This document shows, piece after piece, positions 51,846 through 59,125 of a stretch of DNA of 64,000 nucleotides. The stretch covers positions 124,001 through 188,000 of the forward strand of contig JAHLKC010000076.1 of assembly GCA_025449115.1 (NCBI GenBank), read 5' to 3'. Under the pieces are notes generated by a model. It was not told the DNA's origin. It made no database searches and was given only the letters and a program-made list of their open reading frames with translations. The first letter of the stretch is position 1. Every line of letters starts with the position of its first letter. A program made the translations under genes and the position numbers. Source of the DNA: Chytridium lagenaria (Eukaryota; Chytridiomycota; Chytridiomycetes; Chytridiales; Chytridiaceae).

Positions 51846-52968
51846 TCACTCTTCATTCTCTTCTTGGATCGCTGCTGCATTGCGGAGGACCCAAGCTCTA
51901 GTCTCCCCATCTGCCTCAATAAAGATGCAAGGCGCCTCAACCTTAAACTCTGGCTCCCCTTTCATTTTGATTGTGATTTCAAAAGCATGCCTCACAGCAA
52001 ACAATTCACACGTAATGTCTTGTAGGGCATCAACGCTACGATGATCCTTCCTTGACCTCCAATGTGTGGAGTCTATCGCAGCATACACCTCTCCAGCCCA
52101 AATCGGAGTACCAGACTTCCCACTCGTGTTGATGATCCGTCCAGCGACTTCAGGAACACTAATGAGTTCTCTAATGACACGGGTAAGCCCTTCACCGATG
52201 GATATGACAGTGTCTTGACGGATGGCGACAGAGACGGATTGGATGTTGCCTTTGTTTGAGATAGGACGGACGTGGTGAACAGTAAAACTTGACGGGATCT
52301 TTAATGCCAAAGATAGATTTATCAACTGAGACTCTCCATTCAAGCTGTTCATTCACTCCAGCGATCACAACACTGGTGTCGGCACCTTCTCTTCTTAAAA
52401 CAGTGGGGACATCGATTCTTGGGAAAATCAACGCTCTCTGTCGCTTCTCTATCTTGATGGTGGATCCAAAGAGACCAGGTGCGAGGCCGACCTCGGCTTC
52501 AAGCTTGTAGGATATGTTGACGTTATCCGCAGCACTGTCCGACCATTGAGTAGCCACTGACGGAGGGAGGGTGGAGGTGACCTTTTCGAGGAGAGTGAAT
52601 TCAAAGGGGAAGGAATGTGTGCCAGCCTTCAGTGAGATGGACCTCTCACTCTTCTTCTTGGCATCAGCACTAGCTGGGGCTAGAAGGATCTTGGATTGCT
52701 CCAAAAAAATCATTCTTGATACTTTGGGATGAATAAACGGACTTGCAGGAGATGGAGTAGAGTCTGGCCTCCATTCGCCAATGCCAGAGATGGAGGCGGA
52801 GAGTTCCCCAAAGAGTGAGATTTTGACGGAGGCAATTGAGATAGACTTTGTTGCCAGAAACTTGAGGTTTCCAGAGACGGTAGCTACGGGAGTGACACCC
52901 AGATAGCCATGAAACAATGATTTTGATCCTTCGATGGGCTCGATGCTGATATCCTCGATGGCGGGCAT
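51846..52968 (-). CDS. Arrestin-fold (alpha-arrestin-like) protein
   Basis: About 375 residues, from MPAIEDISIEPIEGSKSLFH (ATG 52,968) to a stop at 51,846. The text is beta-rich with arrestin-type elements. The N-terminal sandwich includes GNLKFLATKSISIASVKISL, KAGTHSFPFEFTLLEKVTST, LPPSV and NISYKLEAEVGL. A C-terminal sandwich contains VKFTVHHVRPISNKGNIQSV and CELFAVRHAFEITIKMKGE. The pattern of G-T-H-S-F-P-F-x-F then L-P-P-S is characteristic of arrestin-N domains. One one-base slip near 52,275 joins the two halves. Fungal alpha-arrestins recruit Rsp5-type ubiquitin ligases through PY motifs; I see none here, so the role may differ (adaptor or sorting). Confidence 0.72.
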
Positions 52969-53607
52969 GACAGGGGTGATTGAGGGTGGAGGTGGGGGGG
53001 CAAGTCGAAAGAAAAATAAATATTTTTTTATTTATTTTATTTTTTTTGCAAAGCTGTTTAGATTCGTCGTTGTACAGTACACCAATCCGAAAGATTGTCC
53101 CCATGAAGCCTTTCGTAGAGCGGCATCCATGCAGGTGTGTCAATCTTTGATTCATCCAAGCTGGAATCTTAACAAAATATTTGGAAACAATCGAGGTTAA
53201 GCAGCAACCTTCTATCAAGGCTGAAGGAAGGGAGGGTCTTAGTGGAAGATAGGAGAGGACGAACACGATATTACAAACACATACCATACGCCATTTCTTG
53301 CATGAGATGGCCGTGATAAAGAGTCGCTAGAAACTAAGGCACACGCGAAAGTTTGAGTTAAACCACTCTAGCAGCATGGGGGGTTGGAATTCCAAAAATA
53401 AGAGGTCGACCCAGCTCAAGGTCGCCCCTGAATCTGTCAAAGACATGACAGTCTATCAAAGATCCCTGAAAACGAAAAGGCTCGAAACCTCCGTGCTCTC
53501 GACGAGCGCAGTATTCGACAAGGTTCCCTCCGTCTTTCCCGCCAAAGCGGGGGCCCTAACCAAGAACTATCCGCTCTAAGGATCCAGGATCCATCCGAAG
53601 TTTCACC
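52969..53607. other. Divergent promoter region with a possible upstream coding piece
   Basis: About 640 bp between the arrestin-like gene (minus) and the SAM-TIR-NACHT gene (plus). A 67-codon open frame at 53,376-53,579 (MGGWNSKNKRSTQLKVAPES start) ends just before the next ATG. It could be a small gene, an upstream ORF, or the true N-terminus of the next gene separated by a frame slip. T-rich runs lie at 53,020-53,050. Confidence 0.4.
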
Positions 53608-56600
53608 ATGCAACCCGCGTCGCCGCTGGACGCCAGAGCTTTGGACTCAACGTCCAAATTGTCGACGGCGACAGCGGACGCAGATGAACCTGACACACCA
53701 CTTCGTTCGTTTCTGCAAGCGGCGGGGCTCGGGATGGTGAGTCGTTTCTTTTGTTTCTTATGGCGACAAACTTTGACATGTTCCAAACAGTACCTCCGAA
53801 CGTTCCGCTTAGAGGGTCTTGAAGCCAGTCCCAACGATCTCAGCATTCTCATCGACCTCGACGAATTCACACTAAATGCTCTCCTCCTTGACATGAATAT
53901 GAAATTAGTGCATAAGGCCGTACTTATTTCAAAGCTTAAGGGTTCAGACACCTGTAGCTTCTGTCACATCACCCTACTCTGTCAAATGGAAGGCCAGTGA
54001 CGGATCCCTTGTTGGTCCAGGTCCAGGATTCGGTTTTCAAACTGGCAATTTGGAAGAGCCGATACGTGCATCCGTCTCTCATGTCGTGATGTCAAGCACA
54101 ACTGATTTATCCATGGAAGCAGGTTATATCTCCGGTAATTAGATTTGTAGTATTTTTATGGCTTAGTAACTTTGATATTTTTTTGTAGGCTCCACCAGAG
54201 AATCTTACTGTACTTCAGATTAAAGCTGGCGAAGCACAATTTGGAGCTTTTCCTCGGCGAGGTTCTGATCTCTCGGTCAAACCTCGGATTCAGCCAAACC
54301 TACCCGTTGGAAGTAATCCATAACACTACAATTAATTAATGTAATTAACAATATTGTAGTGGACCCAGTCAGGAAGCTCTTTGTACCAAAATGGTCATGT
54401 CGGCAGCAGAAAGCAGCTCATGACTTTTTCATAAGGTAAATTACCAACCAAGCCCACGATTATCTGACAATACCACTAGTTACCGAGTCGAAGCCGATCA
54501 AATTAGCGCAGAGAAGCTGGCGTTACTTTTGGAGACAAAGTCGAAGCATTGCTTTTTGATAAACGGTGCCTTGTGGATGGAATGGATTGGGATCAAGGGT
54601 TCCTGAATGGGTTAGAAAGATCACGGTATATTATATTGTTTTGCTCCGAAGCAGCATTGGAGAAAGTTAAAGTTGCCCATTTGGTTGAAGATAACATGTT
54701 GCTAGAGGTTTGTGTCATGTTGCAAATTGTTAGGACTAAATGATTTTTATAGTGGGAGCGGGCTCTCATTCTTAGGGACAAAAATCAAGTTTTCGTTCAA
54801 CCTTTACTTGTGGCTGCTTATCAAGATATTCAAGTCGGGTCAAAGATTTCAAAGGCTTTACTTCCTTTCAAAGCTTTCGATTTAAGCGAGTTCCCTGATG
54901 AACTTATGTTCCATCATTTAAGCACGAGGACGCGGACTATCAGAGAAATTCTTTCCGAAATTTTCAAGATTCAGGGCATCCGTCTTCTTCCAGATGAAGT
55001 TGAGGGGTAAGTTTAATTTCATGATAAAGTACTAACTAGCTTAAGAACAATTCCTAAATTGCTCGATGGTCTGTCAAGATTACAGGGCCAAGAAACAAAT
55101 GTCAGCGAAGCTAAAATGGAAGTCGTGGAGCTCGCACTCACCGCCCGTGAAGCCAAACAGCTACGCGAATGGCTCCGTCCCCTCAACATGGATGACGAAC
55201 GCTCCCGTCAACGTCGGCGTCACGTTACAGGAACCCGTCAATGGCTCCTCAAACAAGTCCTTGACTGGGCTCTTGACCACGCAGAAGGTACAGCCCGCGT
55301 TTTATGGCTTCGCGGTGCATCCGGACTTGGTAAATCCGTGATGGCGGGATACATTGCAGATTCGCTTCAATCCGACCATCTCCTTGGAGCAGCGTTTTTC
55401 TGCAAACATGATGATACGGAACGGAATGATCCAAAACGCGTTGTGGAGACGCTTGCGTATAGCTTGTCAAAGTGGAACCCAAAGTTCGGGAGAATGCTGT
55501 TGAAGATTCGCGACGAGGAACCAGATCTTTTGCAACGTGGAGCAGGGACGACGAGATTCACAAAACTCTTGCTAAATCCTCTTGTCACGTTAAATGAGAT
55601 GCGGATGCTGAAACCCGTCGTACTAGTCGTTGACGCTTTAGATGAAGTTGGCATCAAAGGCCAACGCAACATTTCCTTAAGATCTTTGCGCAAGATTGTC
55701 TACGTCTCCCACCTTGCATCAAACTCTTTGTGACCAGCCGTCCTGATCTTGATATTGTTGACGCGTTTAAACACATGAGACCTGTGAGCATTGAACCATC
55801 TCAAGAGGACAACCTCAACGATCTGACCAAAGTTGCGGAAAAGAAACTCGTTGATGAATTAAAGCTTTCACCGGATGACGCAAAAGCTGCCGCAAGGAGA
55901 CTAGCTATCATGTCTGAGGGGGTCTTTATATGGCTCAACCTCGCCTTTTATTGTCTCAAAGAAAAACTCCCCGCAAACGCAATGGAAGACGGTCTCGTCG
56001 CCATGGAACAGGTTATGACGATTGTGGATAAACTACCTGTCGGGTTAGATGAAATGTATAAACAAACTATTTCATCGGTTTACCTTTCTGGACCAGGGGT
56101 CGTCCTAACACTGAAATCATGCGGATCCTTGGCGCTGTAGTGTGTCTCCGTGAACCGGTCACCGAGAGCGCTTTGTCTGAACTCATTGGTATGGAGTTAG
56201 TGCTTCTTACATCGATATTACGCACGGCTCAAGCAATTCTTAATGTATCTGTACGGGACGCTAAAGTCAGGGTATTCATAAATCCCTGAAAGACCATCTC
56301 ACCAACCCTACACGGAGTCACCGTCGCTTTCGCGTTCGCATTACAGAGGAACATCACAGACTTGGGGAGACTTGCATCAACATCCTTCTTCGTGGCCTTC
56401 ATCGTGGATTGGCGCTATATCTGACGCGTTATCATACGCGTGCAGGTATTGGGCTGTCCATATCTCCGGATGTCTCGGCACAGCTCCATCCCTCCTCCGT
56501 CTCATAGACCGAATGTCGTCAGAACGGTTACCAGAATGGCTCGAAGCCCTAAGCTACCTTAAATCTGTTGACAAAATTGCTGTTGCGTCCCTACGCTCCC

Positions 56601-59125
56601 TGGTGTCATGGTACCCCCACACATCCATTGCATCACCCGTTATACTTGCCAAACAAGAGGCATCTCGGTCGGTAAATGGACCAAGAGCCACGAGGGTTCT
56701 AATGACGGATCTGTTAAGGATGGTGTTGGAGTTTAGGGCGCCGATTGTTGAATCACCTGAAGATGTTTATCGGTCGGCATTACCATTTTGTCCGTCTCTA
56801 TCGGCATTGTGCCAGGCTTATAGTCATAGGTATAAAGGTATTCCGTCGTCTATAGGGGAAGAGATGCAAGATGGGGGCCTTGTTTGTTTTCATTAGGTGG
56901 TCAAGGTCGTGATGATTCTGCACCCGTTCTTAGTGTTTCTATTTCATCAGATGGTTCAAGATTTTTGAGTGGATCAGCAGATGGTTCGCTTCGTTTGTGG
57001 TCATTGGAGACCGGGGAAGCCTTGAAAGTCTTTGAATGGGATGCAGGGGAAATTTCTGTCACAAAGACTCGCGTTGAAGCCGCCGCGATAGGTTATGGTG
57101 ATGGTAACTCTACCATCGGCCTCACAACAAGTGAAGAAGGAAATCTCGTGATTTGTCATTCGAACTTGGAGCGCCTTTACGTCAAATTCCGCTCGACCCT
57201 GAATCCATGGACTCGGCCGCATCTGAATCAACTGACGATGAGTTTGAGGAGGATTGGAGGGAGAGTGATCCTTCGCTTCCGTTTATTGCTGGGAATAGGT
57301 TTGGAAAGGCGACCGGCTGGGCGTGTATGACGGCAATTGTTTTTTCGAAAGAGACGAGGGTGGTGGTTATTGCTGGCGATGAGAAGATTGCATCAATTTC
57401 TTTGGATACAGGGAAGACGTTGTGGATGAGGAAGGAGTCAAGGTGTCAAATTATTCTTGTGAAAGCTGTGCAGCAGAACACAAAGCTGATTGTTGGAGCT
57501 GGAAGGTAGGCTTTGCTATTTTTTTTTTCTCCATGTCTGTTTCAGTTGTTTTCTGTTTTATTTATCTAATCCTTTACAGTGCAATAAGAATTCTAGCTGC
57601 AGACACAGGCTCGCCACTTTCGTCAATGGAAATTGCCCACCACCTTATCACCGCCCTCGCCGCAACAAAAGACGGTACCATCATCGCATACGGCAGCGAC
57701 GACGCCCTCATCCGTCTTATCAATTCCGACGACGGCACAACCCTCTGCACATTAGCCGGTCACCACGGTCCGATCACCTCCATCGACATATCGCCAGATG
57801 GCAGAAAAGTTGTCTCTGCCTCATCCGACGGAACCGTCCGTATATGGCTTTCAATCCCATCTCCTAAAACCTCTGACTACCAAAGCCATCGAAATGGGAG
57901 CTGTCGCTATCTTGTGAAGCCGGATTTTCAAGTGCGGAGAACATTGAATCGTCGTCGGATCCGTCAAGTCCGACTTCACCTGTGACAATTGAGCTGTCAT
58001 CGAGATTAGAGGGAGCGGATTTGTACGATACCGCGTCATCTTCGAGTGAAGTTGGTACTCATATCACGTTAGAGGTCATACGCAAGGCGTTACATGCGTG
58101 TCCATCACACCAGATGGTCATCGTGTGGTATCCGGTTCCATAGACGGGACAATTAAGATCTGGTCCCTCGACACGCTAGCACAGCGGAACGTAGCGAAGA
58201 AAGCCACACCGACATTGTTCTCTGTGTGGCTATATCAAAAAGCTATCTCAAGCCAGACACATCCAGCGACGACTCTCTCGACTCCAACCACAGCTATAAA
58301 GACGGTTCAGGAACCATATATCATCGTGGAAGCGTTGATTTAAAACGTATATCAACAACAAGTCGGCCTGACCTTTTCCCGGAGAAAGTCACGTCATCAC
58401 CTACAACGGCTCCTAAAGTCTCCTCTCCTCTTGCACGCGATTCAACCGTCGCCTCAAAACCTATCATAACATCTCTCCCTGAACTCGACGTTTCTGAACT
58501 CGTGGCTTCAGGGTCACGGGATCGAACCGTTAAGCTCTGGTCAACGTCCACTGGCGACCTGCTGCATACTTTTAAAGGTCACATGGCACCAGTTTACTCT
58601 GTCGCCATCCGGACTGACCGTAAAATGGTTGCCTCGGGTTCATCTGACGGTGTTATTAAGCTATGGTCCGTTGCATCGGGTAACCTTATTCGGGATTTCC
58701 ATCACGGAGGCGACCATGGCGGGAGAGTCAAAGACCTTGAATTTACAGCCGACGGTACACGTCTCCTCTCATGGATAGAAAACAAAGTTCTAGTTTGGCA
58801 TCTGCACAACGGTATTCTCGAAAACCGCATTGACGGTCCCGTACGATTGTGCGCGGACCATCGCCACATATGCGTTCAGGATTCCACCTCTGGCTTAGAA
58901 AAGATTCTAGATACTGCAACGTTTATGGAAGTAGCAGCAAAGGATCAACCTAAACCTGCACCATCGAGGGATGTCAAGATTGTGAATGGGTGGGTTGTGG
59001 ACGCTGATGCGAAGAGAGTAATGTGGTTGCCGGAAGAGTTTAGGGGAATGGCTATGACGGATTACAGTGGCAAGTTTTTGGTTTTATTTGGATACAAAGG
59101 AAGGGAATGTTTTATACGGCTGTAG
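53608..59125 (+). CDS. SAM-TIR-NACHT-WD40 NLR-like protein
   Basis: This has the architecture of a STAND/NLR receptor. SAM (53,695-53,945): [10 protein letters not shown], intron, [10 protein letters not shown], then [17 protein letters not shown]. After a linker of about 120 residues, TIR (54,410-54,880): [56 protein letters not shown], intron, WERALIL. The Glu of LLE aligns with the catalytic Glu of TIR NADases such as SARM1. NACHT (from 55,220): Walker [10 protein letters not shown] (55,310), Walker [11 protein letters not shown] (55,620), LFVTSRPD (55,725). A helical region runs to 56,880. At least seven WD40 blades follow, e.g. [54 protein letters not shown]; the stop is at 59,125. Slips lie near 53,948, 54,555, 55,705, 56,100, 56,450, 57,175 and 58,200. 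The function (ligand-triggered NAD+ loss or cell death) is inference. Confidence 0.82.

Follow-up and report, generated by a model that had tools for sequence, protein, structure and literature searches.

TIR domains that cleave NAD+ (NADases) are activated by clustering both in animal SARM1, through its SAM domains, and in plant TIR-type receptors (TNLs), through the core of the nucleotide-binding, NOD-like receptor (NLR). In SARM1, a ring of SAM domains crowds the TIR domains, and the substitution E642A abolishes activity (PMC7688312). In fungi, the HNWD proteins of Podospora (HET-E, HET-D, and HET-R) place an effector head before a NACHT domain and WD40 repeats, and passages of one survey describe the HET head as a remote relative of TIR (PMC4986451). 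Passages of two other reports state that TIR occurs in NLRs of Chytridiomycota and that SAM_Ste50p can form the N terminus of fungal NLRs (PMC9815663) and that TIR NLRs are a small group in fungi (PMC10197012). Here we describe a gene of Chytridium lagenaria (Chytridiomycota), a chytrid and thus one of the aquatic fungi that branched off early, whose pieces successively encode a SAM-like domain, a TIR domain, a NACHT-type NTPase, and WD40 blades, on the plus strand at 53608-59122 of a 64,000-nucleotide stretch of DNA (C76:124001-188000 of the 41.9 Mb assembly), hereafter the window.

We consider it probable on balance that this gene encodes a real chytrid NLR-type receptor of the STAND class (signal transduction ATPases with numerous domains), with a SAM-fold head, a SARM1-like TIR domain retaining its glutamate, a NACHT domain, and WD40 blades, in which NAD+ cleavage would be gated by clustering. 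Domain order and strand are those of a preliminary description of this DNA, whose TIR, NACHT-type NTPase, and WD40 assignments were all backed by Pfam profile scans. When the first 400 residues of the window protein, its pieces joined with X at frame breaks, served as the query, nine proteins were matched, including full-length copies in Phlyctochytrium bullatum (HDU96_007305, P0121; 1989 amino acids, 57% over 99% of the query) and P. planicorne (HDU97_000247, P0122; 1913 amino acids, 61% over 94% of the query). Apart from the linker, these relatives align to the last codon of the window gene, P0121 from position 53623 and P0122 from 53683. At the level of gene predictions, the domain series is conserved as one gene in related chytrids. 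Chytridium lagenaria itself holds two further SAM-TIR-NACHT-WD40 genes, here named after their contigs, C8 (P0124; L023) and C35 (L024). The parts of the window gene are as follows.

53608-53736, plus strand: first coding exon, with start codon, short leader, and, from 53692, the first part of the SAM domain (the alignment to P0121 begins at residue 14 of that protein, window position 53623).
53791-53940, plus strand: second exon, remainder of the SAM domain (spliced SAM 71% identical to that of P. bullatum; SAM fold of that relative).
53941-54361, plus strand: poorly conserved linker with introns; its junction to the SAM exon is uncertain (frame change or unseen intron).
54362-54435, plus strand: TIR exon 1, ending in HDFFI and part of an S codon (alignment, TIR_2 scan).
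54480-54707, plus strand: TIR exon 2, with one internal frame break, ending with the motif DNMLLE (TIR_2).
54705-54707, plus strand: codon for the glutamate that occupies the position of SARM1 E642 in the alignment.
54753-55006, plus strand: TIR exon 3, C-terminal part of the TIR domain (alignment, TIR_2 scan).
55040-55672, plus strand: N-terminal piece of the NACHT/NPHP3_N NTPase, with P-loop RGASGLGKS and VVDALDE (Pfam; the exon may start at 55046).
55673-56845, plus strand: remainder of NACHT, with TSRPD, and a helical region, split into four frame pieces that share 64-80% identity with P. planicorne.
56848-59122, plus strand: WD40 blades in five frame pieces with one intron (57506-57579), then the stop codon (Pfam, alignment).

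Two features by which STAND/NLR proteins are recognized are present, namely, a NACHT-type NTPase with a P-loop and C-terminal repeats that form a superstructure (WD40). The NTPase matched NPHP3_N (E = 4.3e-25, 89.2 bits; cut-off, 24.8) and, slightly below its cut-off, the NACHT profile (E = 1.8e-5, 25 bits; cut-off, 26.7), both at 55017-55730, and both full-length relatives also match NPHP3_N (E = 5.2e-28 and 4.6e-27). Of the 10 pieces scanned, 4 passed the WD40 (PF00400) cut-off, all lying within 56836-59122, and the full-length relatives passed it as well. The preliminary description proposed at least seven blades; seven to eight blade ends are visible by eye in the window, and motif counts in the two full-length relatives came to 6 and 8. 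For the TIR domain, both a Pfam TIR match and a TIR fold were found: the spliced part that follows the frame break matched TIR_2 below its cut-off (E = 6.8e-5, 23.8 bits; cut-off, 28), and the match reached E = 2.9e-11 and 44.3 bits once the upstream exons were joined with X at the break. A TIR hit exists at 54,410-54,880, where its absence would, by the preliminary description, have spoken against the proposal. The N-terminal pieces of the window gave TIR_2 instead of HET, for which there was no match at E ≤ 1.

Three observations on the window copy weigh against this assignment: its spliced SAM piece has no Pfam match at E ≤ 1; the tryptophan that stands four residues before the catalytic glutamate in SARM1 is replaced by asparagine; and its coding sequence, aligned to P0122, is interrupted by ten frame breaks over some 3.6 kb. 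As to the first, the SAM region of P0122 likewise lacks a Pfam SAM match, and that of P0121 matches SAM_1 below the cut-off of 23 (E = 0.0024, 18.6 bits). The C8 paralogue has a clear SAM_1 domain above cut-off (E = 3e-9, 37.6 bits), and the C35 paralogue reaches 19.6 bits with SAM_2, just under the cut-off of 20.5, with TIR, NACHT, and WD40 behind it. Profile-profile comparison with SAM domains of the same genome gave a probability of 90.5% (E = 1.4e-6), over 38 columns that cover the N-terminal half only. The 71%-identical P. bullatum domain was modeled as a five-helix SAM fold; the highest-scoring of five models reached a predicted local distance difference test (pLDDT) score of 86, and its structural neighbors are SAM domains. 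The SAM claim thus stands through relatives, by fold model and paralogue, and fails for direct profile detection in the window; we read the head as a predicted SAM-fold domain. The linker that follows is mostly below pLDDT 50 in the P0121 model; the two Phlyctochytrium copies share 35% identity in it, compared with 85% in their TIR domains.

The second observation bears on whether the TIR domain is an enzyme. Among known TIR domains, that of SARM1 ranks first in both profile and fold comparison, and the glutamate at the position of SARM1 E642 is invariant in 9 of 9 aligned relatives. From these similarities we infer a putative NADase activity. An alternative hypothesis is that the TIR domain is not an enzyme but a scaffold that recruits partner TIR proteins, other TIR loci of the genome being possible partners. 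With the window TIR as the query, 13 TIR-like matches (E ≤ 0.01, the window's included) were found on eight contigs, and only three of these loci also matched the window NACHT query, which retrieved the window, C8, and C35 loci plus one weak match on C68. While these candidate partners and the lost tryptophan would suit a scaffold, the invariant glutamate and the resemblance to SARM1, an NADase, argue against it, and we regard a scaffold as unlikely. One of the several genome TIR loci without a window-NACHT match lies on C36 (L028:3583-4263), where an open frame of 227 amino acids matches TIR_2 and the two adjacent frames scanned have no Pfam match.

The protein proposed here shares with SARM1/TIR-1 the order of SAM and TIR, the nearest TIR domain, and the aligned glutamate. 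It is not SARM1, since it has a single SAM domain rather than a tandem, lacks an ARM domain in front (only 28 residues precede the SAM domain), and continues into NACHT and WD40. The preliminary description's interpretation, a SARM1-like effector module on an NLR chassis, is partly supported: it applies to resemblance and not to membership, and the protein may work like SARM1 without being SARM1.

The third observation, the frame breaks, concerns the integrity of the window copy. In all ten breaks the phase shift is one base too few, so that the next piece starts one base early. At nine of them the adjoining pieces are no more than 12 bases apart, which leaves no space for an intron; the tenth falls at about 57,850-57,990, in weakly conserved sequence that may contain an intron, and an eleventh junction, from SAM to linker, is uncertain. 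The pieces are 46-83% identical to P. planicorne, and no nonsense codon occurs inside the aligned pieces. These breaks could mean that the window copy is a decaying pseudogene and that the C8 and C35 copies are the working genes of this kind. The density of breaks, in a window whose TRAPPC13 gene aligns in one unbroken frame, would fit such decay, but decay should leave shifts of both signs and nonsense codons, neither of which is seen in the window pieces. The same defect affects the Cpn60/TCP1 (CCT) genes of this assembly, where 3 of 28 adjacent piece pairs lack room for an intron and all 3 show the one-base-too-few phase. Against a single-sign pattern, and to the credit of the pseudogene, one break in the C8 paralogue without intron room has the opposite phase, so breaks in the assembly are not all of one sign; HSP90 pieces on C45 overlap in several frames. 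The unbroken TRAPPC13 gene (nearest named relative, Dinochytrium kinnereticum, 86%) indicates that assembly error is uneven. Because the breaks share one sign, the pieces lack nonsense codons, and the CCT genes share the defect, draft error is the likelier cause, and we think a pseudogene improbable. The Walker B stretch is missing from the public C8 gene model (P0124), possibly as a result of a frame break at that point. Adjoining the receptor gene on the minus strand is an arrestin-like gene (window 51846-53031) with an apparent frame change between its two pieces.

Two region searches together returned 13 distinct proteins, 9 of which are TIR-NACHT-WD40 by domain list or alignment; P0133 is TIR-NACHT without WD40, and the other three carry TIR in different company (P0127 with NB-ARC and TPR, P0128 alone, P0129 with SH2). 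The named proteins among the 13 are from chytrids, by taxonomy looked up for three genera; the remaining named genera we take to be chytrids as well. The TIR introns of the window gene match those of C8, while C35 matches at the second intron and, at the first, agrees only in length. A SAM head occurs in 3 of the 10 TIR-NACHT proteins. Those of Quaeritorhiza, Entophlyctis, Nowakowskiella, Rhizophlyctis, and Zopfochytrium, with or without WD40, share the TIR family and NPHP3_N chassis of the window gene but have no visible SAM domain. A PB1-like head is a candidate in Zopfochytrium (Pfam PB1, E = 0.0012) and Entophlyctis (E = 0.065), both below cut-off in the N termini of P0133 and P0126; a profile search of the PDB gave no confirmation of it, and two Quaeritorhiza N termini had no Pfam match. 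Such a head, for which these matches are faint evidence, would suggest interchangeable polymerizing modules. We advance as a tentative and somewhat doubtful proposal that chytrids possess an NLR class in which a self-polymerizing head, SAM or in other genera a PB1-like fold, precedes a SARM1-like NAD+-cleaving TIR domain, head and NACHT serving as two independent clustering devices that gate one NADase. A TIR-ankyrin-like gene, its ankyrin part recognized by eye, was also seen at L041:3713-5413, on a contig of a Verrucomicrobiaceae metagenome-assembled genome (JAIYDP010000166.1); it sits among frames that resemble intron-broken eukaryote genes, making contamination of that genome probable.

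We speculate that NACHT and WD40 would keep the protein apart at rest. Either a metabolic change or a cue sensed by the WD40 propellers could then allow NACHT to swap its nucleotide and oligomerize. Self-association of the SAM head, together with NACHT, would crowd the TIR domains by way of the flexible linker, whereupon they could cleave NAD+ or make an NAD-derived signal and in this way arrest or kill the cell.

What such a receptor would respond to is addressed by its WD region. Strong internal conservation of repeats goes with fast change. Measured in relatives of the window gene, the median best internal identity of this region ranged from 0.25 (P0121, P0122, and P0130) through 0.42-0.47 (P0124, P0131, and P0123) and 0.67 (P0125 and P0132) to 0.83 (the partial P0126). 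Passages of the earlier survey report strong internal conservation for many fungal NLR repeats (PMC4986451). As judged from their sequences, the window's orthologues have an internally non-repetitive WD region, in contrast to the majority of the other chytrid TIR-NLRs measured; this speaks mildly for a fixed ligand rather than for a hypervariable non-self target. The protein might be a signaling enzyme for development or stress, like SARM1/TIR-1 in animals, rather than an immune receptor, as its conservation across species and its non-repetitive WD region would allow; but an effector head on NACHT-WD40 is a standard build of fungal non-self receptors in passages of two papers (PMC4986451, PMC10197012), and we consider a non-immune role somewhat unlikely. 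The putative immune role is suggested by membership in the fungal NLR class.

Compared with HNWD proteins, the window protein has a true TIR domain rather than HET and an additional SAM head, and its two full-length orthologues have a non-repetitive WD region; compared with plant TNLs, it has NPHP3_N/NACHT and WD40 in place of NB-ARC and leucine-rich repeats. It resembles the reported chytrid TIR NLRs in carrying TIR before the NLR core, but passages of those reports mention no SAM domain before TIR (PMC9815663, PMC10197012), whereas the window gene has a SAM domain, a long linker, and a SARM1-like TIR. SAM_Ste50p NLRs also have SAM as a head, which in the window gene precedes a TIR domain instead; SARM1 is named in passages of that report only as a comparison (PMC9815663). 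No report of SAM-TIR-NACHT-WD40 was found in the titles, abstract openings, and passages searched of the fungal NLR, SARM1, and SAM-TIR literature. Within that literature, TIR-bearing chytrid NLRs are known, and the SAM-TIR head on an NLR core is the new part.

According to passages of a 2014 survey, no NLRs were found in chytrids (PMC4986451), so that full-length chytrid examples bear on the age of fungal NLRs. A SAM domain and an NLR core on one chain, in an early fungal lineage, could show which clustering device is needed and whether the SAM-TIR pairing arose more than once. The receptor described here may respond to a cue by depleting the cell of NAD+. If chytrids do have the proposed NLR class, fungi would have combined the SAM-TIR logic of SARM1 with that of NLRs, and the group of the window gene would represent a conserved variant without hypervariability.
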